DNA of 64,000 nucleotides. Source: Niebla homalea (taxonomy: Eukaryota; Ascomycota; Lecanoromycetes; Lecanorales; Ramalinaceae). The position numbers were made by a program, and so were the translations under genes. The notes below the pieces were generated by a model. The model worked only from the letters and a program-made list of their open reading frames with translations. It searched no databases and was not told the origin of the DNA. Below, piece by piece: positions 10,113 to 58,900 of the stretch; the first letter of the stretch is position 1; the number at the start of each line of letters is the position of its first letter. The DNA lies in the NCBI GenBank assembly GCA_019925105.1, contig JAHGAU010000043.1, positions 124,001 to 188,000 of the forward strand, written 5' to 3'.

Positions 10113-12990
10113 TCAACCCGACATCACAGAGTCGTCGCTAGAATCTAATTTCTGTAGTGCGTCCTGCAAGGACGCGCGCAAACTCTTGCGACCCTCTTGA
10201 GCATCTTGCAATTGGGACATGGCTAATGCTTCTTGCCCCTTGGCCTTCTTCTGGGCCTTCCTTGACTGTACTATCGTCCGCTGAAAAGATTCTGCTTGGC
10301 TCTGTATGCTGGTCAAATCTTGCTGAACCGCTTTGAGTCGGTCCTGGCTCTCGTTCATCGATCCTTCCAATTCATTCGCGAGGTCCCGCTTGAAATAGGT
10401 CTTCACATTGCCGTTGTAACACTCGAAGATCTCAGTCAGGGACTTGTGCTCCTTTTTCAGTGCCACGGTCTCGTTCCTCAGGCTTGATTCCCTTCTCTGC
10501 GATGCCTCATAAACTTGCTGTAATTGGGTGCATGCAGTCGACCATTTGCTCTTTTGGCCTTTGGCTGTTTCACGTCGATGATGAGCCACATGAAGTGCGT
10601 TGAGTACTGGTTGCACAGCTGTGTGTAAGGGATGTGGATGAGTAGCTGGTTTTCAGAGTCAGACTCGGCCTTTACTCCCAGCAAGAACATTGTTACTTAC
10701 AAGACTTCATCGTTTCAGCGACAGGGACAGCATCCAGATGAGACATTCCATCCGAAAGAGCCCAGTCATCGGCCGCCAGCTCTTCGCGACAGACCAACAT
10801 CCGGAATACCTTGCGCCAGATGGTGCCGTCGATTTCGGTTGGGATGGAGAGACCTGACACCAGACAGCATATGTTGACCAGCACGTATATGCCACAATCG
10901 GTACCATTGGGTTGCGCCGCTGCAGTCTCACGAACAAATGTCCATGGCGTCGATGTACTGCTGTCATTGGCGTTGGCGTCAATTGTGTCCACGGATCGAA
11001 TGAGCCGAGATGCTATCCGTTCGGCGTCCTCAGTGACTCGCGTTGATGAGATGGAGTCGTAGTAATGGACTCTGCGGGAAGTCAGGTCCAATTTGGCAAA
11101 TGTCCAATGATGGTTGGACCGATGGTGAAGAGGGAGAAAGGCCATTTGGCAGTCTTGTGCTGATCTCGGCAGTCGTAATTGCCGTGGACGCTCGGCCTCA
11201 ATGTTGTACCATAGTGGATCGAAGATGCAATAGCCATCGCCGTGATGTGTGATCGCGGTCAGGACGAGCTTCAGAGCATCGCTGGACAGTTGTTGCTTTG
11301 GTTGGAGGTCGTCTGCAGCCGTGCGGGATGATGATGATGATGATGATAATGATTTGTTTGGAACACATGCTGGAGAGCTGCCACCTGGGCCGTCATAGTT
11401 GGCTGTCAGGTCGATCAGCTCGGGCGTAGGCGAGATGGAGTCCTTTTGGTCATCACTGTCCGGAGTCGCGAGCCCGAACTTGTCCATTGATGAGGTTGGG
11501 TTTGGGTCAGGGTCAATCTCGTGCATCTGTCGCCGCAATGAGAGCGTCGTGTCATCTGCGGACGGACCACAATCTGCATCCATTGAATCAGGCTGTGGAG
11601 TCCAAGGCTGTAGATGTGAGGGTGTAGTAGTAGTAGACGTCGAATGCGGCGGCGAGCGCGTTGGAGTAAGGGAGAACCGGTCACTGATGGACACTGCATG
11701 ATCGGGATTCCCAGGATCCCCACTCCTTGTCGTCGAGTCCATGTCTCTACGAGGTATCTCAATGCTCATGTCGATGCTCATGTCGATACTCTTGTCGATA
11801 CTCTTTTCACCGCTCAAGCGTGACATGGGAGACGCAGGAGATGAAGAATGATCACCATGGTTTTCTCCTGGACTGGCGAGTTTTGCTCCGTCCTCGCCAG
11901 TCATCTTTCGACCTTCCGAACCAGCGGACTCTTCTTCTTCCTCTTTCTCAGGCTTCGGGGTCTCGGACCTCGGGGTCTCAGAGCTCGATTGTGGCCGAAT
12001 CTTCGTTGAGGGATGATGAAACGGGAAGGGAGGAGGATTGCCATCATGTTTGATCTTCCTTCTCTTTCTCATGGAGACCCGCGCCAGTCGGTCACCGTCC
12101 TCAGGACTGCCGTCATCCAAGGGTAAAGAAGGTGCTGGATGGTCTTCCGGCTCCTGCTCCTTGGTGGGATGGGTCCTCTGGAGGGTCTTCTGGATATTCA
12201 CATTCAATGCAATTCCGACATCTTTCACGTCCGACGTTTGGAGCCATGGACTTCGACACATGCCCGTGTGGCCTTGACCGGGCGGTGTCTCCGACCGCTC
12301 TTTCACCTTTGCCGCCAGCGCCGTCCGGGCATCATGCATTCCATGGCGTTTAGCCAGGGCTGCCAGACTGTTGATTTGGTTGGCCGTCCAGCCGGAGGGA
12401 GGCCGGAAGCTCCCCAACACCTCGTCAAGCTCGATTCCCCACGCTTTCTTGATTCGGGTGAGACCATCCATCTTCCTTGCAGTATACTTCTCGAAGCGCT
12501 CGAGTCTTTCAGGTATGGAAAGCGTCTCTGCGACATGACTGCGCCAGGACTGGAACTCGGGGGTGTCGGGTTCGTGATGACGGATATACCGCCAGATGGC
12601 AGAGATCTAGGAAAGCTGGAGTCAGTCGGTGTTGATCGTATGTCGTATAACGCAGACGGCATGGATTGCTCGATGATTGGCAACATTAACCTTCTGTGCA
12701 CATATATCCTGAGCCTCTTCGTCTCCTTGAATGATCTCACGCAAGACCTTCTCATAGCCTGTCAACCGCCGCTGTAGATCAGGAGCCTCTGAGATGCGCT
12801 CCAATTCAGGATGGGATTCATCCAACGGCTGACAAGGACAGGAAGATGAAGAAGAAGAAGAATGTGTGGGGACACCAGCCATTGGTGGAAGCCCGTCAGT
12901 AGTGAGGGATTCGAGGGATTCATGGTATCGCCGACAGGACAAAAGAAAGGAAGCAACGAACACTGTGCGCAGAGTTTGTGGCGGGGACAT
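10113..12990 (-). CDS. Ulp1/C48-type cysteine protease with C-terminal coiled coil, three exons
   Basis: Exons are 12990-12691, 12606-10701 and 10618-10113, giving about 903 residues. Intron 1 (84 bases) uses GTTAAT..CCTAG, intron 2 (82 bases) GTAAGT..CACACAG; both keep the frame. Near residues 560-735 is a Ulp1-fold protease domain with His600 (NHHWTFAKLDL), Asp617 (HYYDSI), Gln665 (AAQPNG) and Cys671 (GTDCGIYVLVN). The His-Asp spacing of 17 and Gln-Cys spacing of 6 match Ulp1. Family knowledge: such proteases cleave SUMO or related ubiquitin-like proteins, or process them. The N-terminal ~140 residues are helical and charged. A long Ser/Pro/acidic, likely disordered region follows with a tetrapeptide repeat (SIDK, SIDM, SIDM). 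Exon 3 supplies a ~165-residue coiled coil. Without intron 2 the protein would stop right after exon 2. The start at 12990 is inferred; the next Met is at 12882. The gene's 5' end lies in a tandem duplication. In fungi, C48 proteases occur both as host genes and inside DNA transposons. No transposase is seen here. Confidence 0.8.
10619..10700 (-). other. Intron 2 of the Ulp1-like gene
   Basis: Strong donor GTAAGT directly after the codons for AETMKS, acceptor TTACACACAG, and a CTGAC branch-point match in between. Reading through instead gives a stop two codons after the donor. Splicing joins the protease domain in frame to the coiled-coil exon. Confidence 0.75.
11765..11800. repeat. 12-base coding tandem repeat
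   Basis: Three near-identical 12-base units (CTCATGTCGATG and variants) lie within exon 2 of the protease gene. They encode the tetrapeptide repeat SIDM/SIDK in the predicted disordered region. Nearby, GAT-triplet runs (about 11327-11347) encode polyserine. Confidence 0.8.
12607..12690 (-). other. Intron 1 of the Ulp1-like gene
   Basis: Donor GTTAAT follows codons for CAQK, and acceptor TTTCCTAG precedes codons for ISAIWRYIRHH. A CTGAC branch-point match lies about 20 bases before the acceptor. The donor is weaker than that of intron 2, so this boundary is less certain. Confidence 0.6.
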
Positions 12991-15900
12991 TAGATAACTA
13001 AGAAAAACGCCGGCGTTTTTAAGTCACCAGAAAAGCAAGACTACGGATGCACGTTGCTCGGTGGTAGCACCGTAGGATGGATGATGCATGAAGGATCTAC
13101 CTGCAGGGAGCAAAATCTACTTATGGGGGCCAAGGGCCAAGACACTAGCAAATACAGCAAATTCCCCCAAAACGTTTCTTCTTTCTTAGCCCTGGAGAAT
13201 TTCTTGGCACGGACCGGGCTTACCTTGTTCCGCATTGCTTGGCATGCCTACACTCATCTTTAGCTACGGAATTGATCGCTATTCATCATTCATATATATA
13301 CTACTTTATCACCAAGCATACGCAGACTGCGTATCGTTTAATATTAAATAACCAAGACTTTATTCTTCGATTAAAATTATAAATACCGTAACCTCTGCAA
13401 GAGCCTGTATAAAAGCCTCCGCAAGAGCCCAAGAAACTTGGTTATAGAAAGAAGAAGTAGCACCCTCTTCCAGCCATGGCTTCACCTGAAGACAATACTA
13501 GGATAATAAAGAAGATGGACGTTATGGATATGAAACTCATTCGATATTATGTAGGTTAAAATCACAGAGCTTAAAAAGAAACATATACTTTTAAAAGAAT
13601 AATATCGTTAAAATCTTTTATACTTAATAGATCTTAATAATATATATTAAAATAAAATATAAAATTAAAGAACAAGAAAAGAAATCTATATTTATATTAT
13701 TTACCTTGGAAAAAAACCACTTTTAAGGTAAAGAATTAAATTATTTTAACGGTATTAATAACGTTTTTATATTTATTAATAAAATTAAAATCCTTATTTA
13801 AAATAATAAGCTTATAAAAAATTATATAATTTTTAATTTTATAAATTTATTAAAATTTCATAAAATTTATAATTATAATATATTATAGCTTATAAATAAT
13901 AAACGGAAAAACTTTATATTTACTTTTAAATTAATAACTTTTCTTTATTAAGGTATTATTTATTACTTAATTTAAGATTCCGGAATATTAAATTTTTAAA
14001 TAATCGATTAAATTAAGTATATTTATCGTAATATGTTAAAGTAAAAATCAATTATTATATATATCGGTTAAGTTATAACTTTAATTAAGCGTTTAAGATA
14101 TATAAAAATAAATATTATAATTTATATTTACTTATTTTAAAGTTATTTTATAAAGTTTTCTTTTAATTCCTTAAGAATCTTAAGAACATTAAAACTTAAA
14201 TTTAATCTATATAATATAATTAATATTATAACTATAATAAATTTATTTATTTATAATTAATATTATTAAGTTTATTATTTTTTATATAGTAAGTAATATT
14301 AAATGCCATCATTAATAATTATAATTACAATATATGATTTAACCGTAATTAACGTCTTAACCTATAACGTAATAATTATATAAATTAACGTTTTTATTTA
14401 AATTAAAAGCTATTTATTATAAATTACGTAAATACGTTATTTATTAATTAAGGATTATTAATAATAGCTATATTAATTAAGGTTTTAATTAAATTAAATT
14501 AAATTTATAAAGTTAAAAATAATCTAAGATTTATAATAAACCCGGAAAAGCTTTTACTTTAAAATATTATATTTAATAAATGAAAATACCCCGAAGTAAT
14601 TATTAAGCCTTTAGAACTTAATTTTAATATATAAACGTACGTAATTTTATTATTAAAAGCGTCTGCTTATTTAATAAAATCTCTTTTTAATATATTAATC
14701 AATTTAAATCAATTAAAGTTAAATATAAAGTTATTTTTAGAATATTTAAATAATTGCAAATCTTATTAAGTATTAAAAGATTAAGTAACTTTAGAATCTT
14801 ATTATAATATTTACTTTAAATAATATATTATAAATAAATACAATAAGTTAATTAAATTAATATAAAATTAAGTATTAAATATTCTTATTAATATTTAATA
14901 AAGTATAAATTATATTTTTAAATATTATAATGTAATAATTATTTATATAATTATTAATCTATATATAGATAAAAAGTAATTAATTAAAAGGTTTCTTTTA
15001 ATTATTATTAATAAACCCAACTTTATTTATGATAATATAAATATAGTCTTCTTTCTTTGCGGTAATAATAGAATATAGTATCTTTAATTAATTATTAGGG
15101 ATGCAATTCTCCTTATAACGTTATAATAAACCCCTTTTGTATTAAAATATTAATCCCGGCAAACTTGGATCGAGTTATTAATAGCGTTAAAGGTTACGTA
15201 CGCTACTTTTACTTCTATCGATCAATAAGTAATAAAAGATAATATAGCTTTTTCTTAAAAATATCGATTCTTTATCTCGCTTTTTCTAGAAAAAAAACGA
15301 AATAATAAAGGGGGAGATACTATAAAACTTAACACCATTAGATACTTTATTATGTTTTTTAATATTATAAAAGAAAAGGACTTTATAAAGTAAGTTAACC
15401 TTATAAATAATAGAATATATAAGGTTAATTGTAAAATATTTATTTTTAAATAGTCCTTAATATTTATAGATAGCCAGGCGTATTAAATTATTAATAATAA
15501 TATTATAACCAATAATTATATAAAATCTGATAGATCGGGACGTATTAAGGCCAAGTTTACTATTAAATAACCAACGTATTATCTTATTAATATTATTATT
15601 CCCGCATAAACTTAAGCTTTTAATATTTTAGTAAATTTAAGTATTTGTTTAAGTTTTAAGCTTAATTTATTATAGTCTTAATTAATTTATTCTTTATTAT
15701 TATTACGTTATTTATTAAGATTTTTAAAAGTTTTAAACGTAGAATAATTTTATTAAATATTTTATTAATATATAAGGAAGTTATAAGGATTAATATTAAT
15801 AACAACCGTAGCTTATTTACGTTTTATAATTTCATTTTTATTATTAAGGTTATTTATTCCGGTATTATTTTATTTTTTATTAATAAATTTTTTTTAAAAA

Positions 15901-16160
15901 ACTTAATAACTATATTTTACGGGTATTATACGTTTTATAATTAATTTATTAATTAATAAATTTTCTTATTCTTTTAAGTCGTTATAAGTATAAATAAAAT
16001 AGTTAAACGTTATTAATAAGGTATGAAAAGTAAATAAGTTAATTATACTTAATTTATTTAAAATAAACGATTAAAAGGATATCGTAAATAAGTTAAAAAT
16101 AAAAAATATCTTAAATTCTAATTTAGAAGTTAAGGATTCTTTATTATTATTATCGTTATC
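12905..16160 (+). repeat. Tandem segmental duplication, copy 1 (RIPped)
   Basis: This ~3.26 kb segment aligns with three separated pieces to its right: 16270-16414, 33907-34423 and 54894-57560. It starts inside exon 1 of the protease gene, crosses its promoter region, a retroelement gag start and a decayed coding region. From about 13545 on, nearly every difference from copy 2 is C to T or G to A; for example GCTCGAGAAGAAACGCACAC in copy 2 appears as GCTTAAAAAGAAACATATAC. The first 600 bases are much less mutated. Confidence 0.9.
13476..14500 (+). pseudogene. Retroelement gag remnant, RIPped copy
   Basis: An ATG in a Kozak-like context (CAGCCATGGC) opens a frame (MASPED...) that matches the start MASTEDVLARMMKKMD at 34353. 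From about 13545 it corresponds to the clean sequence starting at 54894, but RIP has filled it with stop codons. Together with its partner it marks a retrotransposon-type gag. The right boundary is approximate. No LTR pair could be defined for this element. Confidence 0.55.
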
Positions 16161-16269
16161 TTTTTCTTCCTCTCCCTCTTTTACGTTTTTAACGTATTAA
16201 GCTACGTATTTAAGGAGTTAATTACGTTGGGCGGCGGAGGTGGTCCAGTGATTAGCCCGATCTTATTTA
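16161..16269. other. Junction filler between tandem copies
   Basis: About 110 bases that match neither end of the duplicated unit. The left part is pyrimidine-rich (TTCTTCCTCTCCCTC). It is followed by an unexpectedly GC-rich, un-RIPped block at about 16230-16255 (GGGCGGCGGAGGTGGTCCAG). This is the breakpoint joining the end of copy 1 to the start of copy 2. Confidence 0.55.
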
Positions 16270-16414
16270 AAGGATTCAAGGGATTTATAATATTGTTAAT
16301 AAAATAAAAGAAAGGAAGCAACGAACACTGTGCGCAGAGTTTGTGGCGGGCACATTGGATGACTAAGAAAAACCCCGGCGTTTTTGAGTCACCAGGGTCA
16401 AGAAAAGCAAACTA

Positions 16415-16459
16415 CGGAAAATGACACTAAAAGTCCTGGACAACGCTAAAATCTCGGGT
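16415..16459 (+). repeat. Left terminal inverted repeat of the Fot1-like element
   Basis: 45 bases ending CTAAAATCTCGGGT. Identical in reverse complement to 33860-33904. Remarkably free of RIP differences given the mutated interior. Confidence 0.95.
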
Positions 16460-17774
16460 AAGGGTTTTTCCGGGGCTTGGTACACCCCTTTTTTTTCAGT
16501 CTTTAACACTTACACTTAAAACACTACCCATAATAGGCTTAAAACGTCGATTATAAGGCTTTAAAGGATTAAGTTAAGTTTATTACTATTACCTTATTTA
16601 ATTAAGCTTGATAAGCGCTTATAAGACCGGGTTTATACTTTATAAAACTTCCGTATACCCGTATATTCAGCCTGCCGTTATTTAGAATTATACGGCTTAA
16701 TTATATTACCCTTTTTATCCTTACGGTATATATTATTACCTTTAATATCGATAATTTATTAAATATAATAAAGTATTTATTTAATTTAAGTTTAAATATA
16801 ATCTTAAATAGATACTTAATTTTAATTTTTAAGTTATACTTTCTTTACTTTAGCTTATATATAAGGGGTATTATAATAAATCGTTTTTTATTTTATTTAT
16901 AATTAATAAAACTTAATTATATTAAGATCCGGTAAATTACCGTATTATAGTAAACGTAAAATATTAAAAAGCTAAAAGATAATATTTTAATATTTTAAAG
17001 TATAAATAAAAGCCTTATTTTCTTATATTATGGTTCCGGGCTTAATTTTTTAATACTTATAAGTAAAAGGGATAAGCTTAAGCATAAGTATCTTTTTTTA
17101 ATAACGGTACTAGTTAATACCCCCTTTTTTACTACTCCGTATTACCTTTACGGTGTCAGCTTAATAACGGAAAGGGGGGGGGATAGGCCTTTACTTTGCC
17201 TATATTAGCCATAACTCTCCATTAAGGTTTTGGGCCACTTTTATTACGTAAAGCTATCTGTTGTATTACGGTATTAAATTCCTATTCAGCTTTTTTCTTT
17301 AATTTAAGCCTTATATTAAGTATATTAAGATCTTAAGTATATTCTTTTTTTTCTACGGCTATCTCGGTTTCTTAAATATAATAAAAGCCTTTATAATAAT
17401 AATTAAAGTAACTTTAAAATATAAATTCAGAATTCTTTAATATTTTACGACGGATATATATAGTAATAAAGACCTTATTTATAAATCGTTAAACTTATAT
17501 TTTACCCCGTTAAGTATTTAATATAATATTTATTTTATTACTTTAAATAACGTTCTTTTAATCCTTTAAAGTTTAATTCTTATATTTAATTATTTACGTA
17601 AAACGGTCTTTTAATATTACGGGTATAAATATTAATTTCTTTAATATTTTATAGGATTTAAGTTTAAATTTATAAAAAGCTTTTAAAGAAATAATTAATA
17701 CAAGGCTTAATAAGTACTTATATTAAGCCGTTATTATCTCTTTATAATTGCGGTTTTTACGTACGTAAGCTATA

Positions 17775-17923
17775 TGTCACGAGCATGTACATAGTGATAG
17801 GACACTGTCCTATGGATAGGACACGTACATAGTTAGTAGTTTGTCCCTTTAGGATAAACGATCATTTATATATATATTAATTACTTTATTACTTTATCCA
17901 TTATATACTCTATACCCATTACA
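17775..17923 (+). repeat. 5' LTR of G1
   Basis: Starts TGTCACGAGCATG and ends CCCATTACA. Less mutated at its left end than the 3' LTR, which reads TATTATAAACATA at the same place: all changes are C to T or G to A. Confidence 0.92.
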
Positions 17924-20900
17924 GTATAGTAGTAATAACCATAAATACTAAATAACTATTTAACGGTCCTATTATCCTCTTAAATATTATCTTAAACGAA
18001 AGGATATTGTTTTATTTATTAAGATAACCCGGTCCGCGCAGTTTATTTAGCTATGATAGATAGCCTTTTAAACGAGCTTTTCATTAATACTTATTCTTAT
18101 AATATTATTATTAAGAGAAAGAGATTATATTTTATTACCGGATAGTAAATATCGCCTATCTTAATACCTATTTTATCCTTAATATTATCGATTTACCCTA
18201 GGATAACGTCCGTTTTATAAAACGTTTAAAAACGGTAAAAACCTTCTAACCGCTATTTAATAATTATAAAATAACGAGTACCTTTTATCCTTTTTATCCT
18301 TTAACCTACCGGAATAAAAGTATCTTATACTTGCCGTAAGATAATTACTTAAATTTATAAACGGAAGTTATTGTTTACTTTTAGATTATTCTTTTCTCTT
18401 AAATATTTATACTTCTGATTTCTTTATTTTTATATTGCGTACCGGATTAATATCCTAAATAAGTAGCTTAATCCTATTCGTTTTATTATAATAATTAAAT
18501 TAACGGATTAACTTTATCTTAATCCTATTACTTTATTAAAGTAAAATATTTTATCCTTAAATTAAAATACTATTTAAACTATTTATTAAATTATTTAATT
18601 TATTAAAATAAATATTTATAAGAACTTTATAAAGATATTTACCGTATTAATTATTAAAATAATTATAAAATACTTTTATTTTTCAATATTAATAAATTAA
18701 ATAAAAATATTATCCGATAAAAACGTTAAGGTGGTATTTCGATCTATACCGGAGCAATTATCTTACCTTATTAAGTAACCGGAAAGCGAGCATATTTTTA
18801 AAAAGGTATTTAAAACCTTTATTTAAAACGTTAAATTAATGATCGGCCGGCTTTATATAAAGTAATTAATAGCGTTAATATTATCGTTATCCCCAGAACC
18901 CGGGTTATAATCCGATTAATTAAAATTATCGGTATTAAATATTTTTATTAAGATTACGGTATATAGAGAATAAGCCCGCCGTAAATAATTTAATCGTCCT
19001 TTGATAAATCGAGATTAATAAAGGCCAATATCAATTATAAATAAAACCAGGCTATAATAAATAATTATTAAATTAATTAATATTACCGTTAACCGTATTT
19101 AAGATAAAACGAATTAAAAGTAAAGATAAAAATAAGGTTTACCGGGTAAATATAATAAATAAGGATTATTAAGAATTTCGGTTTTTATATTTAAGAATAT
19201 AATCGAAACGCTTAAGTATTTTAATCCGGTATATTTTACCGACAATAATAAATTAATTATTAACTTTAAACGGTATAGTTTTTATCGGGACGTATTTATT
19301 TAAATAAATTATTTAAAGAATATTATTAAAATAGAATTGGAGGATATTATTCGTATATAAATTAACTTTTACTTACGCGGCGAGGCTTTTATTTAATATT
19401 TTATTAAATTAAGCGAATTAAAACGTAACTTATTGTGAAAAACATCCCTTAAACGATAAATTAAGGCCTTAATTAATCGATTTAAGGAATAAGGGATTAA
19501 CGTTATAGAGGCGTTAAATAAATTGGATTATAGTATAGTTAATATACGTAATAACAAGATATTATAAGTTTTTATATATAATATTATCCGTTATATACGG
19601 GTAATAAAGATATTACTATATAATTAACTCTTATTTATATATATAAAGATAAACGTTAAATTCCGCATTTATTTAAAAGAACCTATAACGTTAACGTTAA
19701 TATCCGCGTTTATATTTATAATTAATAGTAAAATAAACGCTTTCTTAAACATTATAAAAGATAAAAAACGTAATATCTTTATATTAAATAAAGGTTAATA
19801 TAATAATTTTATATCGCGAAAACGAAATAATAATTAAGGAGGCTATTATCTATATTAAAACCGTTTCTATTTGTAGCTTAATTATAATTATTATAATTAA
19901 GGTTTTCCTTACGCGCTTTTTTAAAGTAATTATTAAAGTAATTATTAAAATAATAATAACCGTTTATAATAGTTAAGTTAATAATATATATTACGTCCCT
20001 AGTAGCAGATCGTTAATCTAAAATTACCTTTCATTATTATAGTACCCTTAAACGCGTATAGTTTATTATATTAACAGAATAATAAATATTTAAACCGATT
20101 AAATTAAGGAGGATTTCGCGGAAATTAATTTATATAAAAAATAAGCCGATTAAAGGTATCCGTTTATTAAATATTTATTAATAATTAAAAAAAATATTAA
20201 AAATACGTCCGCGTCCGGATAAGGATAAGATTTAATAATATTAGCCGAATAAAAGAATAACGATTAGCAATTAAATAATATATATTAACAGGATACGGAC
20301 GACTTATATATCGGATAAAATAATTTTAATAATAATATTTATTATAATAATAATAGATTACCCGAAAAATAATATAAAGCGTTTATAGGCTTTATTAATT
20401 TTTCATCCAAGTATAATAACTATTACGTATCCTTCCCTTTAAGAATAAAGCTTTATAAGTACTTATAAAGTAACTGCCTAGTCCGGTTAGGGCCGTTACC
20501 GGCAACTATTAATAACGGCCCCCCTTAAAGCTTATTAACGATTGCCAGTACCGGCCCCTTTTAAGGTGATATTCTATATAAACTTATAATATAAATAAAC
20601 TTAATATCCGCGGATATTCTGATTATTTTATTAACCGCGTTAAACGAAGGTATAAATACTAGCTTAAGTTTTAGAAGCTAAAACTATATATAAGTAACTA
20701 TCCAATTAACCTTATACCTAAAGAATGTTTTTATATATCTAAATAATGGTTACGGTATAAATTTAATTAACCGTATATAATTATTGGAATAAATACCGGA
20801 TATTTTAATCTTTAAAATAATAATATCCTTACGCGTTAAAAGCATTAATTTTACGTTTTATAATATTAATAAGTATATTATTATTACCTTTTATTTACCC

Positions 20901-22129
20901 GGTATAAAGGATAATTAAAAGGTATTCTTTAATATAATACGGGAATTATACTTAATAAATAATTTCCGCGTAAAAATGTTAATCGGTAACGATATTATAG
21001 GTCCGGAAATTATTATCCTGAATATCAGATAAGGATATATTATTATAGGAAATAGTATATAAATTGATATCGTTACTTAATAGCGTAAAAAGCATTTTAA
21101 ATTATTTATTTAAACGAAAAATTACTTAATTATTTTATTATATTCGTCTAAGATTCTATTTATTAAAGCAATTATTATCCCTAAAGACCGTAATTTTATC
21201 TTTAAGTTAATATAATATAAGGCCTTATCCTTATATACGTACTTGGCAGATTACTTATTTAAGGGTGTTTTGGTTAAAAACGAGCACGATTACCCCGTAT
21301 ATATAAAGCGTAAATAAGTACTCGGTATCCTTAATAGTATTAATAAAGAGAATTGCTTTTAATCGGACGCTATTAACATAACTCGTTATTTACCTTAAAA
21401 ATTAAGAATAAAAAGCTGGATAAAGAAGTTAATAACTAAATTAATAACTATTACCGTTTTACTCTCTATTACGTATCTTAAGAAAACAGGATTATATAAA
21501 TAACGATTAAATAATAAAATTATAATATACGGAAATTAATTAATACGGATAATATTTAAAAGCCTCATAAATAAATTTTTAACTATCTGGTAAGATAACG
21601 GGTTCGTAAATTTTTTAGAGGATAAATAAATAGAATTATTTTTAAAATTAAATTAAGAATTACGTATTAAGAATAAGATTAAGGTATATTTATTAAGTTT
21701 AAGGGACCGAGAAGTTATAGATAAAACGTTTAATAAACTATATAAGTAAAGTCGATTATCCTATATAGAATAGCCGACGCCTTTTAGCTACCCGGTATTT
21801 ATAGTATAAAAGAATACTCTAAACGGATAACGTAAGGGCCGTACGGTAATAAATATCCGAGGACTTAACGAGCTGCTTATACTAGATACATATTTAGTCT
21901 TTTTATAATTAAAGGTAATTTCTCGATTAAATGGCTATAAATACCTATTAATAATAAACGCAGTTTCTTTCTTTTATTAATGGCGTACTTATTTGTTTAT
22001 TAAATACTTACTTACGGTTATAACCCACCGCGGATAGGAAATATTCAACGTTCCGATTATAAGTTATTTAAATTCCGTTATATATATCCAATAATAAATT
22101 AACGAAATATTATAATTAATTAAAGATTT

Positions 22130-22420
22130 CGTAAAAACGTATATCGATAATATTATCGTTAAGTTAAAAATGTTATTTAAATACGTTTTTAATTTACGGA
22201 GATTATTTACTTTTCTACGTAAATATAATATCTCCCTTTTACCGATAAAGACGTTTTTCGGATACTTTAACGTTTTACTATTAAGATAAAAGGTAAATTT
22301 ATTAAGATTATTAATATCGGAAGAAAAACTTACGGTAATATAATTATTAAAATATTTTATTACGTTCGGTAACCTCGAATATTACTTGGGATTGATAGGG
22401 TACTTACGGGATCGTATTTA
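22130..22420 (+). pseudogene. Reverse-transcriptase remnant of G1
   Basis: Readable in pieces: KTYIDNIIV (the catalytic YVDD with the second Asp changed to Asn by RIP), TKTFFGYFNVLLLG, and GDLEYYLGLIGYLR. These are hallmark segments of fungal Gypsy polymerases between the active site and the RNase H linker. Several stops interrupt the frame, so it is inactive. Confidence 0.8.
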
Positions 22421-24043: not shown

Positions 24044-24389
24044 TGTTAGACTGACTCCGCTGGCGGTGCGCCGGCGGGACTAGTAAAGGTGGGTATAGAA
24101 GACATAACGTTACGGTCTGGATACTTAAGTACTACTTTAATAAGTAAATTGGTAATAAGATTAATTCTTAAGGAACTTAGAAAGAACTAAGGTATAACTT
24201 TCACTTAAGATAAAAATAATAACTACCCCGTTTTACGCCTATTAAACTACGGCTTATAAATAACGTATATTAAAGCCGTTGCCAAGGCCCTTTATTAAGG
24301 CCTTTTACCAAGGCCTAACGGCCTACCTTAACGTAATAATATAACGTATTATTATAGCGTTAACGTAAAGATAACATTAACTATTAATA
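24044..24389 (-). repeat. 3' LTR of G2
   Basis: On the plus strand it begins TGTTAGACTGACTCC. The first ~150 bases are almost clean, the last ~100 fully RIPped. It contains a local repeat of AAGGCC words (about 24280-24310). Confidence 0.92.
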
Positions 24390-40081: not shown

Positions 40082-40084
<3 letters not shown>

Positions 40085-40812: not shown

Positions 40813-40880
40813 TTATTATTATTTTAATCGTAATTACCTTTTTACCTTATTATTATTTTAATCGTAATTACCTTTTTACC
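40813..40880. repeat. Perfect 34-base tandem duplication in L1
   Basis: Two identical 34-base units (40813-40846 and 40847-40880) lie in the 3' region of L1. L2 has a single unit at the corresponding place. Identity of the units in otherwise saturated RIPped DNA points to duplication after RIP. Confidence 0.85.
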
Positions 40881-43245: not shown

Positions 43246-43407
43246 TATTATGAAACGGCACTTGCATATATATAGCATCACGGTTTACGGTATGCATAAG
43301 CATAGCGGGTAGCTTCCGCAGGGGTTTTGGCGCGCACTCACTTAAATCCATAGTTACCTACCTAATTAAATCATTAATTATATATTATACTTAATACGTT
43401 CTTAATA
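43246..43407 (+). repeat. Left LTR of N1
   Basis: Begins TATTATGAAACGGCAC (RIPped TG) and ends TTCTTAATA. The 100-residue minus open frame at 43351-43049 starts inside this LTR (MDLSEC...) and runs into L1, so it is an artefact of the insertion. Confidence 0.88.
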
Positions 43408-48200: not shown

Positions 48201-51080
48201 TAGTTATTTTTATATATTTTTTATTTTAATAAATTTTAACTTTCTTAAACGGCTTTATTATTAAGATTATTACGTTAATTACTTTATTTAGAGCCTTTAT
48301 TACCTGTATTATAAAACGGTCAATCTATTCCTTATTATTAAGCCGGGGGAGTTCCGTTAATTAAGATATTACTTTTACCGTTTTTATAAATATTTTAACT
48401 TCTTTAATTATCTTTTACGCTTGTTTAAATAATAAAAATAGGGTTATATTAACGGATTAATTTAAGGTTATTTATATCGGGACGTAATTTAAACCGTATT
48501 TTAAGTCCTTTTAAGGTCTATATATTATAATTAAGTTAATAATATTTTCCGAGTTAAATATTAAATCGATTATAGTCTTAAGTTTATGGCTTTCTTATAT
48601 AATAGCCCCTTTTAACGTTAATAATATGAAATTAAACTATATAATAATTATTAATAACTCCTTAAATTTAATATAATTAATTATATAACTTTCTTCATTT
48701 TATTAAGTATAATAAAGATTAAAGTCCTTTATTAAGAGGTATTCATTAAATATAATTATAATATCCTTAAATAACGGGATCGTAAAAAGTTTTTTCTTAT
48801 TAATTAATAATGGATTATACGTATTATAAATATTTAAGTTACCCTTAATAGTTTTTTTTCATACGATCCGAAGCGTATATAAATTCTTTTTATAATAAAT
48901 AACGTCCTAGTTATTTATATTTAGTTTCTTATTAATAAAGAAGTATATCCGCGTTATCTTATTACCTTTAAAGGCTAAATAAAAACCATTTTCCGGATTA
49001 ATTAAAAAGTAAATATACGGATTATACGGCGGCTTTTATATCACTATAATATTAATATCCTTTATTTCCTTAAATCCGAATATCGGTATTATAATTTTAA
49101 TTACTTCCTTATATACGTTATATTATATTATCCTTAAAAGCGTAAATATATTAAATATCGACGTTTATTAAGCTTTCTTTATTAACTTTTATTTATATAA
49201 ATAATTTTTTTTTAAGGTTAAACGTTATTTATTTTAATCTTTTTATTACGATAATAATCCCGGTTAAGCGGTCGGCTTTAAAGGTTAATATTATTATAAG
49301 CTTCCTCTTTTTCATATTATTGATTATTATATTTTATCCTTTTTTATTTAATAAGCTTTATTTGTATTTTAAGATCGTTTTTAATTACTTTACCGGTTTA
49401 AGTTTATATAAGTTATAACATTAAATTTTAACTATTATCTTAGTTTTTTTACGTTAAGTTTTTTTCGCTTTTACCGTATATTATAAGTTTTACGTTGAAT
49501 AATTATTATTATTATACGTTACGTATTTTAATACGTTCTTTATTAAGCCCTTTATTATTAAATTAGCGTATTTATATATATTATACCCTTTAATATATAC
49601 CACGTACTTTATATTATTAAAATATTTTATAATAATATACTTATACCTTTAATATTTAAAGTATTAATAAATATCCGCCGTTTAATCTTAAGGTCTTATT
49701 AATTTAAAAGATTTATCCTTTATTACCCTTTTATTAAAGATATCGTTATATATTTTTATTAATATTACGTTTAAAATAACCGTAAAATATTTTTTTATAC
49801 GATTAAAGGCATTTAATTTCTTTATTATAAAAAGGAAACTATAATTAATGATTTTTAATTTAAAATAGAAAACCGTATTCTTTTTTCTTTATCCGCCTTA
49901 AAGTAATTTCCTTTTCTTTTTTTATAAATTTTATTAAGTATATCCCGTTTACCGCGATAGCGAAGGATTACCTTAATATTTTTACCGTTTTATATCTTTT
50001 TTTATCGGTTTATCTTTTTAACTTTTTTAACTTTTCCCTTGCCTTTAATAAGGCTATATTAAGGAAAATATCTTTACTTTATAACTTATATACCGTAATA
50101 ATTTATTTTATTAGCGGCTTTCTCATTACCTTAAACGCTTTTATTAATTATAGTAAGTTCGTTTTTATCGCTATACTCCTTTCTTCTTCACTTAATAATT
50201 ATACGGTTATTATTTTCGCCTTTTTTAACGTTATTACCTTTTCCCCCGTTTTTAGCTTTTTTACCATTAACGTCGGCGTTATTTTTACGGTTTTTATTAC
50301 TTAACTTATCCCCGCTCCTTTTTTTAAAGCCTTTTTTATCGTTTTTTTATTTTATACGTATCTTTTCTATCTTTTTTCGTTTCCGTTTACCGGCGTTTTT
50401 ATTATTGCCTTTTAAGCTCTATAAAGTTTCTTTAATTCCCTTAAACCTTTCTTTATATTTACGTAAAAGTTTCTTATTTCCCGTAACCTGATTTATAATA
50501 TTAATTAAGTCTTTAACGTAATATCCTTCTATATAATTATAAAGAGGTTTTTTAACGCTTTTACCGTTTTTTTCCTTATTACTTTTCTCCCGCGTATTTA
50601 ACGGTTATTTCTTTTTATAGTTTATTCCTATTTACTTAATATTTCCTTACCTTTTTTTAACTTTCTCTTAATTTATATATACTTAATAAGACCTTTTATA
50701 CCTCCGTTTACCCTTTATTTATCCCTATATACCGTCTTCGTCCCCTCCGCCCCTTATTTATTACCCTTAATAATAATACCTTTATACGTTATATACGTCC
50801 TTTTATATATATCTTATTAACTATAAGCTCCCTATTCGATTTAAGGTTTTTTTATTTTATATTTATCGCGTTATTCATATAACTTATTACCGTTTTTATT
50901 AACCTAAGCCGCTTACCCTTCTTCCCTTTTTACCTTTATTATTACTCCGCTTCCGCTTATCGTATTTAAGGTATTATCCTTACTATTACTTAAGCTATAC
51001 ACGCGTGCATCGTTTCTGACCTCTGGGGTCCCGTTGTTCGTCGCCATCCTGTCCATCTTTTCATATAAATATTATATATC
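45288..51080 (-). mobile_element. Full-length LINE L2 (inner)
   Basis: A 5,793-base LINE inserted in the right LTR of N1, flanked by the 13-base duplication CTTATATATATAT (45275-45287 and 51081-51093). The minus-strand 3' tail is (ATCA)n at 45288-45304. ORF1 starts at 51047 (MATNNGTPEVRNDARVYS), about 33 bases from the 5' end. It aligns with L1 along its whole length. ORF1 and ORF2 are closed by RIP stops. It is the youngest full LINE in the stack. Confidence 0.85.
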
Positions 51081-51227
51081 CTTATATATATATAGTATTA
51101 CGGTTTGCGGTATACATAAGCATAGCGGGTAACTTCCGCAGGGGTCTTAATGCGTACTCACTTAAATCCATAACTACCTACCTAGCTAGATTATCAATTA
51201 TACATTACACTTAACACGTTCTTAACA
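51081..51227 (+). repeat. Right LTR of N1, second part
   Basis: Continues the LTR that starts at 45260, after the L2 insertion. It ends CACGTTCTTAACA before the CTGCT duplication. This end is nearly free of RIP. Confidence 0.88.
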
Positions 51228-52933
51228 CTGCTCGTTATTATACTTTATTAATTCTTAAATATTATAAAGGGAGACGGTTAAGTTATATATTATTAAATAA
51301 AAATATATTTATTTGATTTTTTTAATAGTTTTTTCTTTTTCCTTTCAAGTTTCTTCTAATTATATTAACGTCTTTTAAGTTTTATATATAATATTTTATT
51401 TAATTAGCTTTTTCGCTTTTATGATTATTATTATATATTTTTTATTTTAATAAATCTTGGCTCTTTAAGACAGTGTTATTATTAAGACCGTTACGTTAAT
51501 TACTTTATTTAATACCCTTATTACACGTTTTAGAAATAAATTAGTCTATTTTTTATTTTCGAGCTAAAGAAGCTTTATTAATTAAGATATTATTTCTTTT
51601 ATTTTTATATATACTTCGCGCTTTTTAATTATTTTTTACGCCCTTCTTATCGGTAATAATAACGTCGGGTTAATTAATTAATTAATCTAAAATCGTTTAT
51701 ATCGGTATAAGGTTTAAGTTATTTCTTAAGTTCTTTTAAAGTTTATATATTAATACGGTATTAATAATTCTTTTCTAAATTAAACGTTAAATTAATTATT
51801 ATTTTTAATCCATAATTTTTTACGTTATAATCTTTTATAATATTAATAATAAAAGATTAAATTAAATAACGATTATTAATAGCTTTTTTAACTTAACTTA
51901 ATTAATTATACGTTTTTTCTCGTTCTATATAATATAATAAAGGTTAAAATCTTTTAATAAAAAATATTTACCGTGTATAAATAAAATATCTTTAAATAAC
52001 GGTATTATAAAGGGTTTTATTTTATTAATTGAAAACGGATTATATACGTTATAAATACTTAGGTTACCCCCGGTATCCCCTTCTTATATAACCTAAAATA
52101 TGTTTCAACTCCCGTTATAATGGATTATATCCTAGTTATTTACGTTTAATCTTTTATTTATAAAGAAGTATATCCGGGTTATCTTATCCCTCACAAACGT
52201 TAAGTAAAATCCCTCCTCCGGGTAAATAAAAAATATATAACTTAATTATATAATAATTTTTATATCGTTATAATATTAATATTCTTTATTTCCTTAAATT
52301 TTAAATATTAATAATATTAGCTTAATTGCTTTATTTTATACGTTATATTATATTATTTTTAAAAGCGTTAACACATTATATATTAATTTCTATTAAGGTT
52401 TTTTATTAATATTTATTCAAATTAACGCTTTCTTATTAAAATTCAATATTATTTACCCCGGTTTTTTTATGGTTATTACTATTATTTTAAGGCGGCCGGA
52501 CTTAAGGGTTATTATTATGGTAATTTTCCTTTCTTTATGTTATTTATTATCGCTTTTTAGCTTTTTTAATTAAATTAATTATATTTATATATAAGGATAA
52601 CCTTTAATTATTTCGTTAATTTAAGTTCATATGAATTATAGCGTTAAACCTTAACCATTATTTTAATTTCTTTAATCCTTATTAATTATCGTAAATCCTA
52701 TATGAATAATTATTTTTACCGTATATTATATACTTAAATACGTTCTTTATTAAGCTTTTTATTATCAAACCCGCGTATTTATAAATATCATATCCTTTAA
52801 CGTATATTATATATTTAATACCGTCTGAATACTTTATAATAATATATTGATATTTAAAATATTTAAAATATTAATGAATATCTATTACTTTATTTTATAA
52901 TCTTATTAACTTAAAAGACCCGCTTTTAATTAC

Positions 52934-53364
52934 TACTCCTCCAACCGGGACGGTATGGTACGGGATTTGATTATGGTCTTCCCATACCGGCCGGTACGGT
53001 ATATGGGTATATCCCGTTCCTGTACCGTCCCTATACCGGCGGTATAGGAGCGGGAAATGCTAAGATCCCGGTGGCAAAAAAAAAAATCTTTTTTTTAAAT
53101 GTAAAATATACTATTTTTAATATTAAGCGAGCCGTTAAGTTTATTTAAAAGAAACATTTACTTTTAATATTGCATTTTTGGATTTTTGGATTCTTTTTCT
53201 ATTTATTTTAATATATAATATACTATAAATAGTGAAACGGTATCTTGGCATCTCCCGGCCCCGTACCGGTACGGGATAAGGGTACCCTTTCCCTATCCCG
53301 TACCGGTCCCGTACCGGTCCCGTACCTATCCCGCGGGATTAATCCCGTACCTGTTGGGGGAGTA
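52934..53364. mobile_element. hAT-like MITE with GGTACGGG repeats, inside L1
   Basis: A 431-base insert with imperfect inverted ends (TACTCCTCCAACCGG and, on the other strand, TACTCCCCCAACAGG). It is flanked by the 8-base duplication TTAATTAC (52926-52933 and 53365-53372), as for hAT elements. L2 lacks it. Both arms are crowded with direct and inverted copies of CCCGTACC/GGTACGGG and CCGGTACGG, an arrangement typical of sub-terminal transposase-binding sites. The centre is AT-rich and non-coding. The arms are almost free of RIP. The Pro/Gly/Thr-rich open frames here only reflect the repeats. Confidence 0.82.
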
Positions 53365-54713
53365 TTAATTACTTCTTTATTGAAAACGTTATTATATATC
53401 CTTATTAATATTACGCTTAAAATAACCGTAAAGTACCGTTTTACGTAATTAAGAATATCCGGCCTTTTTATTATAGGGGGGAGTTTAAAGGTAATGATTT
53501 TTAGCCTTCGGTAGAAAACCGTATTCTTTTTTTTATACGTCTTAAAGTAAATTCTTTTTTTACGTTTAAGAACCATGTTAAATATATCTTATATATTATA
53601 ACGGTAAACGATTACCTTAATACCTTTACCGTTTTAAACTTTCTTTTATTAGTTTATTTTTTAGATTTCTCCAGCCCTTCTTTCGCCTTTAAGGATATTA
53701 TATTAAGGAGGATATTTTTACTTTATAGTTTACGTATTATAATAATTTATTCCGTAAGTGGTTTTTCCGTTATTTTAAATATTTTTATTAGTTATAAATG
53801 GTTCGCCTTTATAGCTATATTTTTCTTTTTGTTATTTAATAACCGGATCGTTATTATCTTCGTTTTCTTTAATACTATTTTATTTTTTAACTTTTGCCGC
53901 CGCTATTATAAATACCGTTTTTACGGCCTTTATTACCTAGCTTTTTCCCTTTCATAAAGTTCCCGCTATTGCTCCCTTATTTTATATAAAGTCCTTTTAA
54001 CTCCTTTTTTCCCCGTTTATTGGCGTTTTTATTATTACTTTATACGTCCCGTATAGCCGCTTTAGCTCTTTTAACCCCGCGTTTATCCTTACGTGAAAGT
54101 TTTTAATACTCCGTAATTTTACATATAATATTAGTTAAATTTTTAATATAATATTTTTTTATTTTATTATAAAAAGATTTTTTAAAATTCTTACTGCTTT
54201 TTCTTCCGTTATACTTTCTTTATGGATTTATTATATCCTCCCCTTTATAATTTAATGTTTATTATATAATAATAATATATTCTTTTTACTTATTTTAATA
54301 TTACCTTATACATTCTTAATAACCTTATTACTAATATTATTTTATATTTATTTATCTTTTACTTACCCCGTTATAAACGTCACCCTGGCCTTTTTTACCT
54401 TTTATTTATTAATTATTATTATATCATTTTTACGCGTTTTATTCGTTTTTTTACGTATATCTTATTCCATGTAAATTTTTAATTCGGTTTAAACGCTTTT
54501 CATTTTATCGTTATTATATTATTTATACGATTTATCCCTGTTTCCGTTAATATAGGCGTTTACCTTTTTACCTTTTCGATCTCGACTATTACGTTATTTA
54601 TATTTATCGTATTTAAGGTATTCGCCTCCCTATTACTCGAGCTCTGTATATATGTATTATCTTGGACCTTTAAGGTCCCTTTGTTCGTCGCCATCTCCAT
54701 AATTTCCGTTTAA

Positions 54714-54888
54714 ATAATAATTTATTTATAAAGATAAAAGGTAATTATAGGTAAATAACTAGGCGTTCTGGGATGTACCGCCAGGTAATAGTATTTACAC
54801 GTATTATAAGGATATCTTGGCATTGCCTGCATGACTGCTCCATAACACTCCTTGCCCGCACTCCATGCCCGCAACACACCGGCTGACA
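54714..54888 (-). repeat. 5' LTR of C1, second part
   Basis: Continues the split LTR after the LINE. RIP fades out between about 54730 and 54830, and the last 60 bases are clean (CATGCCCGCAACACACCGG). It marks the right edge of the AT-rich tract. Confidence 0.9.
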
Positions 54889-54893
54889 TTTCG

Positions 54894-55810
54894 ATACCAT
54901 CCAGGTCAAAATCACAGCGCTCGAGAAGAAACGCACACCTTCAGAAGAACGACGTCGTCGAGATCCCTCATACTCAGTAGATCTCAGTGATACATACTGA
55001 GGCAATACATAAGGACAAAGAACAAGAGAAGGAATCTAACATCTACATTAACTACCTCAGAAAGAGATGGCTTTCGGGTCGAAGTATTAGGCTACTTTGA
55101 CGGCACTGGTAATGTCTACACGTTTGTTAACAGAATTAAGACCCGTGGTCAAGAGTTGCAAGCTTGTGAAAGACCATATAGTTCTCAGCTTCATGAGCCC
55201 ATCAGGCTGAGATGAAGCCTACAAGTGGTGGACATCGCAGCTCACCATTAGTGGACGCAAAGATCTCGCATTTGCTTCCAAGTCAATAGCTCCCCTTTAC
55301 TATGCCATCACTCATTGCTCCGTTCGGGATTCCGGAGCACTAGACCCTGAAAACTCAATCAAATCAGATACACTCGTCGTAATGCACCAGAGCAGAAACC
55401 AGCTACTGCATATGTCGGCCAGGTCATGACTCTAGCTGAGCGCTTGGGACACACAAAAGCAAGCGTTGCAGCTCCTATTTACACACTTTATCGCCGCTTT
55501 GCAGAGCACCCTCGTATTCTCTGACGATCTTGAGAACTTCATGGCTCAAGCCCAACTTCGTCAATCTACATGGAATGAGCAGTACCGCAGCTATGGCGAA
55601 TCCACCTACTCGCAATCGACACCGTCGAGTTCATCACCTTACGCACACCATGCGACATCAAATGCCGCTACCAACAACCACGATCGCGACAAACGATTCA
55701 GTCGTGATCGACGTCCTAACCCACAGCGTGGTGGCTATGCAAATCGACGCCCTCACCCAGGTCAAAAGCTGCTCACCGCAAATTACGCAAATGCGTCGCT
55801 TGTTGATTAA
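54894..55810 (+). pseudogene. Retroelement gag, main piece (copy 2)
   Basis: Continues the gag begun at 34353. Recognisable coding stretches lie in shifting frames: KITALEKKRTPSEERRRRDP; YVGQVMTLAERLGHTKASVA followed by PIYTLYRRFAEHPRI; and a final open stretch 55466-55810 with FMAQAQLRQSTWNEQYRSYG and an Arg/Asn/Gln-rich basic tail. The length and the acidic-helical then basic layout fit an LTR-retrotransposon gag. Frameshifts and stops (for example after LSDTY) inactivate it, mostly without RIP. No protease or polymerase follows. Confidence 0.6.
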
Positions 55811-57370
55811 GGGTTGCTGATGGTTGCTGTGCTGGCTGAGGTCTCGGTTGGGCTGTATTGAATTTGGGAGATTGAGGATGATCTGGGGCTTATAATAAAC
55901 GCGGAAGAGCCCTTGCCTTGGGACGTTGTACTTGACGAGCCAGTCTCTGGTGGTCCTGATTTGGATCCAGAGGCTGAAGATGCCCCCGAGGTAGTTGCCG
56001 AGCCTCCGGAGCTCGATCTTGGTATGTACGCGCACGCAGTTCCACCACCAGACGCGTCTGCCCGTTTAACGAGATCTCCTTTCAATGTATTAATCGACCA
56101 AGATAAATCGAATTGGATAATGAATTTATCCTTAGAATAGTCTGAATGGTTGCGAATCTTGTCAGGTGTCAAAAGACCAAGCTAACTCCAGAATCTCACT
56201 TAGATGTTTGCCCTAAATGATACGTCGTGAACAGATATAGCAAGTCGACTGGATTCGTGTGGACTTGGGCACTTAATATTCCTGCTGGCAGTTAACAGAG
56301 TGTGGACCATGTTTCTAAGTGTCATAATTTGACAGCCGTTTATGTGATTATTAATCTGCATGCAGACAAGAAGCAGTTGGTCAAGAGGTTTCTTTCGACC
56401 ATCATTGACAAACCCGACTTCACTTGCGACGACATGAATACAGTCTTCTTTCCTTGCGGCAATGATAGAATACAGTATCTTCGATCAATTGCCAGGGATG
56501 CAATCCTCCTTACAACTTCACATCAAACCCCCCTTGTACCAAAACATCCCGGCTTTGCAAGCTTGGATCGAGCCATTAATGGCGCTAAAGGCTACGTACG
56601 CTACTCTTACCTCTGTCGTCGAATAAGGAATACAAGATGATATAGCTTTTTGATAAGGGTATCGATCCTCCATCTCGCTCTTTCCAGAAAAAACGAAATG
56701 ATAAGGGGAAGATGCTATAAAATTTGAGATTATTAAAGACTTTATAATGCTTTTTAACATTATAAAAGAAAAGGACTTTGCGAAGCAATTTGACCTCACG
56801 AATAACAGAGTGTACAAGGTTAGTTATGAAATGTTCTGAAATAGTCCCCAATCCTCACGGATAACCAGGCGTATCAAACCATCGATGATGATATCGTGAC
56901 CAATGGTTGCATGAAATCTGATGGGCCGGCACGTATTGAGGCCAATTTTGCCGTCAAATCGCTGACGCATTATCTCACCGACATCGCTGCTCCCGCGTGG
57001 ACTTGGGCTTCCAATACCTTGACGGATTTGGGCACCCATCCAGCTCTCAAGCTTGACTCACCATAGACTTGACCAGCTCGTCCTCCATTATTATTACGTT
57101 GTCTGCCGAGATTTCTGAAAGCTTTAAACGCAGAATAACCTGGCTGAACGCCTTGCTGACCTGCGGGGAAGTTGCAAGAATTGATACTGGTTCACCAGAT
57201 GGCCGCAGCCTGTTCACGTCTCATGAGTTCATCCCTACCATCGGGCTTGTCCATTCCGTCGCTGTTCCATTGCTCGTCAATGAAACTTCTTTCTACGGCC
57301 CAACGACTATGCTTGACGGGTACCGTGCGTCTCGTGATTGGTCCATCGGTTGGTGGACCTTCCGATTCCT
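55811..57370. pseudogene. Decayed coding region shared by both tandem copies
   Basis: On the plus strand 56302-56640 is open (DKPDFTCDDMNTVFFPCGND, then a frame with LQAWIEPLMALKATYATLTS). On the minus strand a Ser/Gly-rich frame (56172-55807) is open. The plus reading looks like the end of a secreted-protein-type sequence with a CDD..C pattern, but I do not recognise it. The RIPped counterpart is at about 14500-15990. Several stops separate the pieces, so I treat it as a pseudogene of unknown origin. Confidence 0.35.
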
Positions 57371-58900
57371 CTAAGTCGTCATGAGGTAGGTGTAGGTAGA
57401 GCAGCCAGACGCTGCTAATGAAGTACTGGACGTAGATGAGCTGGATGCACTTGATTCGCTCGAAATAGACGATCGAGAGGATGTCGTAGACGAGTCAGAC
57501 CCAGAAAATGTCTTAGATTCTGATTCGGAAGTTGAGGATTCTTTGTCATCATCATCGTCGGCAAGATTCTCCACAGCCCTAATGGGATTAGAAACGCTTC
57601 TTCGAGCCGTTACCAGAGCAAGAGTGCTTTTTTGGTGGGAAGTCGCTACCTTTGCTCTTGATGAGGTTCTCGACATTGTCCTTGAGATTGTCAATCTCCT
57701 GAATAGTCATGGCCTCCTTTGACGAAGCCCAGAACGACACCACCAAAGACTGCGTTCTGGGAGGACGCTGCGGTCTCACTCGGTAGTAAAGTAGTGAGAG
57801 GCATGCCTCCAGACTCTGTTCTATTTGGTACATCGGTGGACTTAGGTGCAGAAAATGACTTCGTGTTTGATGACGCAGCTGTCCCAGAGGAAACCGATGC
57901 GCCAAAGGTAGCCGAAGCGCCTGTCGTACTACCAATTGATCCTGGTGGAGGGCTCGTTGAGCCACTGAACGTGATTGAAGATGCCGATGGTGGCTTGCTG
58001 CCAACAGAAGACGACGAGCTCATAGACAAAGGAAGACTGAGTGGGGCAGTCCCTCCGACTGAAGACCTAGAAGAAGAGCCTGTTCCAAAAGGTGGCGAAC
58101 CGCCTCCGGAGGACTCGGAAGACGAACTACCTGACTGACTGGTAGAAGCTCCTGTCCCGATTGGTAGCGATACAGTATGTGAAGCATTTGTCGCGCCGAC
58201 AGAGTTCGACTTGGACGGAGATGTACCAGTCGTTGGATAGGAGCATTTGTTGATCCAGTCCCTCCAATCACGTTAGACTGCGAATAAGAGGATAACCCAT
58301 TTCCGAGATAAGCTGATGGAAGGTGGGTGGATCCTCCATTATTGCGTGACGGTAATAATGATGGTCATGTCCCAAGCGGAATTGGAGAGCTGCGAGTTGC
58401 CCCTGTTCCTTCTGCAGACTTTGTACTTGAGGAAGCCAGTCCAGTCCCTCTCGGAGCTCTTGACCGTGATGTGGTTTGAACTGGAGGTACGGGCCCAGAA
58501 ACTTATGAGGAGCTTGTGAGATTATTCATCAATCCAGCGCCTGTGCCACTGCCACTCAAGCCTTGACCTAAGACACTTAATAGTGACGAGAAAGAGCTTT
58601 GCGTGCTCTGAGAAGATCCCGATGAATTGCTTGAACCAGTGGTGGACCCTCCCTTGTGAGAAGATGAGGGACCGTTGGTCCGGTCATCGCTTCCGAACCA
58701 TTAATGAATATGTTGTATAAACTGTCGGCAGAGATGCGAGCGTGGTCAATTATCACTGGAGATTTTGTGGGAGCCATGGTCAAGTTGTCGATGATGAAGT
58801 TTGTGGGATTGATGGTGAAGGGGGTTTGCCAATGACGACGGTCTCAACAGAAGATTGCTGATCGGGAAGCGGAGGTGCTCAAGTATAGTGTTTGTTGGCA
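57371..58900 (-). pseudogene. Ser/Thr/Gly-rich secreted or cell-wall protein remnant
   Basis: Minus-strand reading starts with a short folded block (FTINPTNFIIDNLTMAPTKS then PVIIDHARISADSLYNIFIN, 58830-58700), like the repeated hydrophobic modules in fungal extracellular mucin-like proteins. A long Ser/Thr/Gly-rich stretch follows in changing frames (SSSSESSGGGSPPFGTGSSS, SSITFSGSTSPPPGSIGSTT, 58160-57690), then an acidic-Ser region (ADDDDDKESSTSESES, about 57570-57500) and CSTYTYLMTT. At least three frame changes and stops break it. No RIP bias is apparent, so decay is by ordinary mutation. The plus-strand acidic open frame 57719-58138 is its shadow. Confidence 0.5.

Follow-up and report, generated by a model that had tools for sequence, protein, structure and literature searches.

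A window of 64,000 nucleotides from the ascomycete Niebla homalea (assembly GCA_019925105.1, contig JAHGAU010000043.1, here contig 43, positions 124001-188000; positions below are those of the window unless a contig is named) contains a tandem segmental duplication whose two members differ markedly in their burden of repeat-induced point mutation (RIP). Two transposon stacks split the second copy; in copy 1 the long downstream block (block C) is saturated with mutations, whereas copy 2 is nearly clean. The process itself is known and clearly recorded here; its outcome is unusual. The best explanation, on which we regard the balance as roughly even, is that RIP came first and that copy 2 was then replaced through a crossover with an un-RIPped homologue. 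The window also contains long AT-rich, RIP-like tracts. Searches for relatives of the unit covered the assembled genome (50.6 Mb in 52 contigs).

Two copies of one unit

The 3.3 kb unit at 12905-16160 (copy 1) recurs as 16270-16414, 33907-34423 and 54894-57560 (copy 2), broken by two stacks that together amount to ~38 kb; copy 1 carries neither insertion. The original prediction had recognized this recurrence in three pieces around two stacks, and the alignments bear it out. It had also spoken of 41 kb of insertions; that figure is the start-to-start offset and overstates the inserts themselves.

We aligned the three blocks one by one, keeping the inserts in place and splicing no pieces together: block A (12905-13042 vs. 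16270-16414), block B (13042-13548 vs. 33907-34423) and block C (13543-16160 vs. 54892-57560). The untrimmed alignment of block C comprises 2652 aligned columns, with 113 transversions (4%), and 88 gap columns; in copy 1 it takes in 13 and 40 bases outside the block. After trimming, there are 95 transversions in 2602 columns. The identity of the two copies over this block is ~64%. Three control pairs of unrelated AT-rich DNA of similar length gave 671-736 gap columns and 16-18% transversions. Because block C is so far from these values, its homology is not compositional, and the alignment does not dissolve into unrelated segments. The BLAST score of the block C piece was 925 bits; the next-best match that copy 1 has elsewhere (block B included) reached 282 bits and was followed by many compositional matches. 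The E-values of these matches are inflated by AT-richness. With lenient scoring, the homology may extend leftward to ~12866 / 16234.

Over 0.8 kb of the unit, transversions could be polarised with the dispersed relatives described below: the branch of copy 1 received 19 and that of copy 2 received 18. These equal branches, a RIP-independent clock, indicate that the copies are sisters. They lie head to tail, as in a tandem segmental duplication. We consider it distinctly unlikely that copy 2 arrived later, or was restored ectopically by gene conversion, introgression or transfer instead of by allelic crossover. The cleanness of copy 2 and its position as sole carrier of the insertions would suit such an origin, but the head-to-tail arrangement and the 19/18 split over the polarised 0.8 kb argue against it, and the genome search turned up no clean ectopic source for the downstream part.

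RIP load of the two copies

The asymmetry is pronounced. In the untrimmed block C alignment, 809 differences have the RIP direction in copy 1 (431 C>T and 378 G>A), and 29 run in the opposite direction. In the trimmed alignment, copy 1 is changed at 804 of the 1212 C/G sites of copy 2, while copy 2 is changed at 25 of the 402 C/G sites of copy 1. The transition loads are thus far from equal, as had been claimed when the interior of copy 1 was called saturated and copy 2 almost clean. From 13575 on, copy 1 is altered at 422/622 C sites and 376/574 G sites. By context, the changes affected 325/364 CpA sites and 479/848 other C sites. The C:G to T:A excess on both strands, the preference for CpA and the repeated nature of the target are those of RIP; mutation of both repeat members, which also belongs to RIP, is missing from block C of copy 2. 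A local dip in the mutated fraction lies within the saturated block at ~15175-15375 (14/33 C, 9/35 G).

The order of changes along copy 1 speaks to the history of the mutations. Block C contains 403 strand runs, compared with a random expectation of 401.7 (95% range 379-425). For Neurospora, a passage of PMC7296669 puts fresh mutation clusters of one type only at ~91.9%. The random strand order of changes on both strands suggests that several or many rounds of RIP took place. If there were many rounds, the present copy 2 was probably not in those nuclei; indeed, its absence from the nuclei that underwent the saturating rounds is the simplest account.

Where the unit and the dispersed family overlap (0.8 kb), 12 sites have C/G in copy 1 and T/A in copy 2, and at six of them none of ten relatives has C/G; these sites say little because the ten relatives are RIPped themselves. 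Selection on copy 2 as a gene is unsupported: in its eight open pieces, transversions fall 23, 24 and 32 times on codon positions 1, 2 and 3, a weak test because about half of the changes lie on the copy-1 branch. Its reading is also broken. Pfam searches with eight pieces of copy 2 (the last of which extends beyond the unit) returned only one sub-threshold match.

The genome has two PF00145 DNA methylase loci, whose open frames measure 654 and 680 aa; they are not assigned to RID or DIM-2.

Repeat pairs elsewhere in the window

One could suppose that RIP here was one-sided, such that one member of a linked pair was mutated and the other spared. The final state (809 vs. 29) is exactly of this kind. 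However, a passage of PMC3017866 describes RIP as hitting both copies, and the summed loads of other repeats in the window are near-symmetric. As controls, we used ungapped, seed-supported repeat families inside the stacks. Seven such families share one offset, and their loads sum to 133 vs. 117 over 1286 bp; another four, at a second offset, sum to 68 vs. 76 over 757 bp. Two further families were near-equal (9/9 and 10/12). With summed families so nearly symmetric, we view one-sided RIP as quite improbable. Very unlikely, too, is a polar form of RIP in which the insertion-split member was spared and the uninterrupted one repeatedly mutated over the shared block, with recognition and mutation separable between the partners.

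Segments 41729-43078 and 46490-47849 are neighbouring AT-rich copies in insertion II, with loads of 133 vs. 117 over 1286 ungapped bases. Long alignments within insertion II (404/398 and 263/260) were dropped as controls: their identity, 0.71-0.72, does not stand apart from the 0.70-0.72 of unrelated AT-rich DNA.

Extent of the mutated tract

The RIP load of copy 1 grows with the length of the uninterrupted partner block, from 3/54 sites (~140 bp) to 61/241 (517 bp) and 804/1212 (2670 bp). Thus the earlier description of a mutated copy 1 is correct for block C and needs amending at both ends: block A is essentially clean, block B is only mildly affected, and the tract passes 16160 into copy 2. 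A one-step model places the rise at 13572 (range 13570-13583), which is 27-40 bp inside the site of insertion II at 13543. According to a passage of PMC4858203, Neurospora testers need ~155 bp, and the number of mutations follows length from 220 to 520 bp. In light of this published length dependence, the grading fits RIP after the insertions; together with the step near the insertion site, it suggests that order of events.

On the right, the tract crosses the junction into copy 2, where 13/22 C/G sites are changed in 16270-16314 and 0/42 from there to 16414; it overruns the end of copy 1 by ~146 bp. Within the junction, 16229-16262 reads by eye as unmutated, so that the tract is patchy there. 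Mutation in such a place has precedents: a passage of PMC4858203 states for Neurospora that strong mutation can strike single-copy DNA flanked by close repeats, and mutated DNA between close repeats is also mentioned in parts of PMC12543289 and PMC6709928.

This overrun raises the question of whether the load of copy 1 is RIP leakage, or heterochromatin spread, from the adjoining stack. Leakage into single-copy DNA has been reported in Cladosporium fulvum (in a passage of PMC9453070), and the ~146 bp beyond copy 1 resemble it. The edges of copy 2 tell otherwise: it is at or near background at the four places where it meets a stack, with 0/42 changes in 16315-16414, 19/203 in block B and 3/39 in the first 250 bp of block C. 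The stack ends look clean where they can be assessed (47/47 identity of the inverted repeats; 0 RIP-direction changes over the final 105 bp of the right-hand long terminal repeat, LTR, of insertion II), and a clean block, 16315-16459, stands between the copy 1 tract and stack I. Spread into adjacent unique DNA was therefore not seen, the short overrun past copy 1 excepted. A further difference from leakage is that the genome contains a partner for the saturated block. From these data, we judge leakage to be a very doubtful source of the asymmetry.

Dispersed relatives and the search for a third copy

The original prediction had offered a third copy elsewhere as a possible cause. The unit does have relatives: block B holds ~155 bp of the LTR, and block C ~770 bp of the inner stretch, of a dispersed family. 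The inner stretch has no Pfam match and appears gag-like in our reading. We take the family to be LTR-flanked and non-autonomous. In its LTR and inner stretch the unit resembles elements of that kind (LTR - gag-like - LTR); it differs from them in that the unit showed no second LTR, and no further match to its final 1.7 kb turned up in the genome.

Searching the genome with copy 1 gave 67 matches, including both copies and repeated or compositional ones (best 40 of 389 candidates scored), and block B gave 40 matches (best 40 of 106 candidates scored). We fetched 14 family regions, 11 of which have an LTR pair, with starts 1.86-1.90 kb apart in nine of these. Transversions in ten AT-rich relatives amount to 9.2-10.4% relative to copy 1 and 10.4-11.6% relative to copy 2; an eleventh, GC-normal relative shows 13.4% and 13.2%, respectively. 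As a trigger, the family was rejected: it matches only the upstream ~900 bp, is about equally distant from both copies and should endanger copy 2 equally. Furthermore, its homology ends at ~14480, and the RIP fraction of copy 1 stays at 0.59-0.84 in the bins of 14500-15099. Because of this equidistance and of the continuation of RIP past that end, the family does not explain the asymmetry.

Nor did a closer relative emerge. A search for a third copy of the downstream part, 55800-57560, found none in the genome (two candidates, both of them the known copies), though copy 1 is saturated in this 1.7 kb too; with 14480-16310 as the query, there were only short matches, taken as compositional (best 40 of 162 candidates scored). 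A RIP partner in trans that has since been lost is an unlikely explanation. Such a third copy would have sat on a different chromosome or on an accessory element, and would either have been lost by segregation or be absent from the assembly. Unlinked copies segregate in meiosis, and the assembly may be incomplete; in addition, RIP of unlinked copies is reported in a passage of PMC11969663. Against it, neither 55800-57560 nor 14480-16310 left a trace of such a copy (with the latter search limited as above), and copy 2 would have been equally exposed unless absent at the time.

Four of the loci deserve separate mention. L036 and L037 (C8:1001000-1006000 and C8:1012500-1017500) have a GC content of 5-30% per 500-base bin, such that their family match may be compositional; their long stretches with 5-10% GC are the most extreme among the loci profiled. 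L042 (C7:1872500-1876000) is a GC-normal relative of the inner stretch, with 69% identity to copy 2 over 478 columns and no LTR pair detected; it is perhaps an old domesticated or fossil copy. L030 (C5:1099500-1106000) contains at ~2800-3950 a GC-rich tandem array (0.49-0.60 per 500-base bin) between two LTR-like repeats in an otherwise AT-rich element.

Proposed history: RIP followed by recombination

In Neurospora, RIP works in haploid nuclei before karyogamy, and meiosis pairs the mutated chromosome with that of the other parent. This cycle furnishes the frame for the reading that we prefer, RIP followed by a crossover with an un-RIPped homologue. RIP would have acted over several sexual cycles in nuclei with both copies, copy 2 probably already carrying the insertions. 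The homology would have been cut into stretches of ~140, 517 and 2670 bp, of which the longest alone would have been heavily mutated, in both partners. Later, a crossover in meiosis (or a conversion) would have joined the RIPped copy 1 to the right part of an un-RIPped homologous chromosome, e.g. a single-copy one; the 38 kb of insertions and block A of copy 2 are the easiest places for this exchange. At their present identity over block C, the copies may no longer provoke strong mutual RIP. Among the explanations in the original prediction, the best fit is a copy 2 that was restored or came later, provided that this took the form of the crossover described here.

The insertions would matter in this scheme because they provide room for a crossover and shorten the homologous blocks. 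The idea that they moved copy 2 beyond effective pairing, by contrast, found no support; a passage of PMC4858203 has RIP finding homology on other chromosomes. Distance may still have some influence: a RIP frequency of ~50% is quoted for unlinked duplicates in a passage of PMC11969663. The same source describes crosses between strains with two unlinked copies and with one copy in which one copy underwent massive RIP, with about half of the spores free of RIP there.

Several points weigh against RIP followed by crossover. With one assembly at hand, the un-RIPped haplotype is hypothetical. A MAT alpha-box gene (MATalpha_HMGbox) was not found in the genome, in a search run without a positive control. 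Three control families are uneven: D1 (14/33), D16 (12/5) and D6, the LTR core of insertion II (24/4). These three are short, and the D6 imbalance reflects a clean element end, as the right LTR has no RIP-direction changes in its last 105 bp and the left LTR has 23 there. The LTR pair of insertion II has two transversions in 179 positions, compared with 95/2602 between the copies, a weak hint, given the small LTR count, that the insertion is younger than the duplication; the copies would then have spent a period without RIP. Selection on the adjacent gene is an alternative reason for the cleanness of the 5' part of copy 1. Finally, the order of events could equally be the reverse, with RIP before the insertions and an exchange at ~16306-16315. 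That order accommodates the RIPped junction and the RIPped start of copy 2, but selection or coincidence would have to account for the step at 13572 and for the cleanness of block A.

An assembly artefact that fused two haplotypes or strains is extremely unlikely. The contig is only 246 kb long, a circumstance that would favour it, but the insertion boundaries, the target-site duplication and the inverted repeats are coherent.

Features of the locus

The coordinates of the duplication, the insertions and the adjoining gene are collected in the table.

Table. Features of the duplicated locus in window coordinates.
Feature	Position	Strand	Description
Copy 1 block A	12905..13042	+	Essentially clean; 3/54 partner C/G sites changed
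Copy 1 block B	13042..13543	+	Mild, patchy RIP; 61/241 C/G sites changed; ~13189-13335 corresponds to the dispersed LTR-like repeat
Copy 1 block C	13543..16160	+	RIP-saturated on both strands; 804/1212 C/G sites changed
Junction between copies	16161..16269	+	First ~two thirds AT-rich, RIP-like
Copy 2 block A	16270..16414	+	First ~36-44 bp RIPped, rest clean
Insertion I	16413..33906		Ends of DNA-transposon type (perfect inverted repeat of 47 bp, each end with TA); AT-rich RIP-like stack inside
Copy 2 block B	33907..34423	+	Near background despite RIPped stacks on both sides; 19/203 copy-1 C/G sites changed
Insertion II	34424..54893		LTR-retrotransposon-type ends (TG...CA); 5-base target-site duplication; AT-rich RIP-like nested stack
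Copy 2 block C	54894..57560	+	Almost RIP-free (25/402 sites); broken coding pieces, no Pfam match above cut-off
Left flanking gene, Ulp1-type (Peptidase_C48) domain	10121..12883	-	5' end adjoins copy 1

Repeats D1 and D12 lie within insertion I. The direct repeat of insertion II comprises 34479-34657 and 54711-54889, and for the first 55 bases of its left LTR the right end offers no clear counterpart. In the left flanking gene, PF02902 was matched (E=8.8e-12) in a 637-aa piece at 10693-12606 on the minus strand; the gene limits and a putative first exon near 12883 follow our reading of the open reading frames. A search for the origin of the junction found none: its comparison with the right flank scored 27.7, below the shuffled maximum of 28.8 (60 shuffles), and that with the left flank, for which there were no separate shuffles, scored 27.3.

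Comparison with RIP in Neurospora

The locus shares with Neurospora-type RIP the C:G to T:A changes on both strands, the CpA preference and a restriction, for the most part, to repeated DNA; the short junction between the repeats is AT-rich as well. It differs in bearing the load on one copy only and in the change of 56% of non-CpA cytosines. We found no earlier reports of one-sided RIP in the literature searched; they may exist outside it or under other wording.

If the recombination reading is true, the locus would document, in nature, one way for a duplicate to survive RIP: its first member was mutated, a clean allele of the other was crossed in, and the two would now be too different for strong RIP targeting. 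The locus also serves as a test, outside Neurospora, of the rule that longer uninterrupted homology brings stronger RIP, since transposons divided one copy into blocks of ~140, 517 and 2670 bp.

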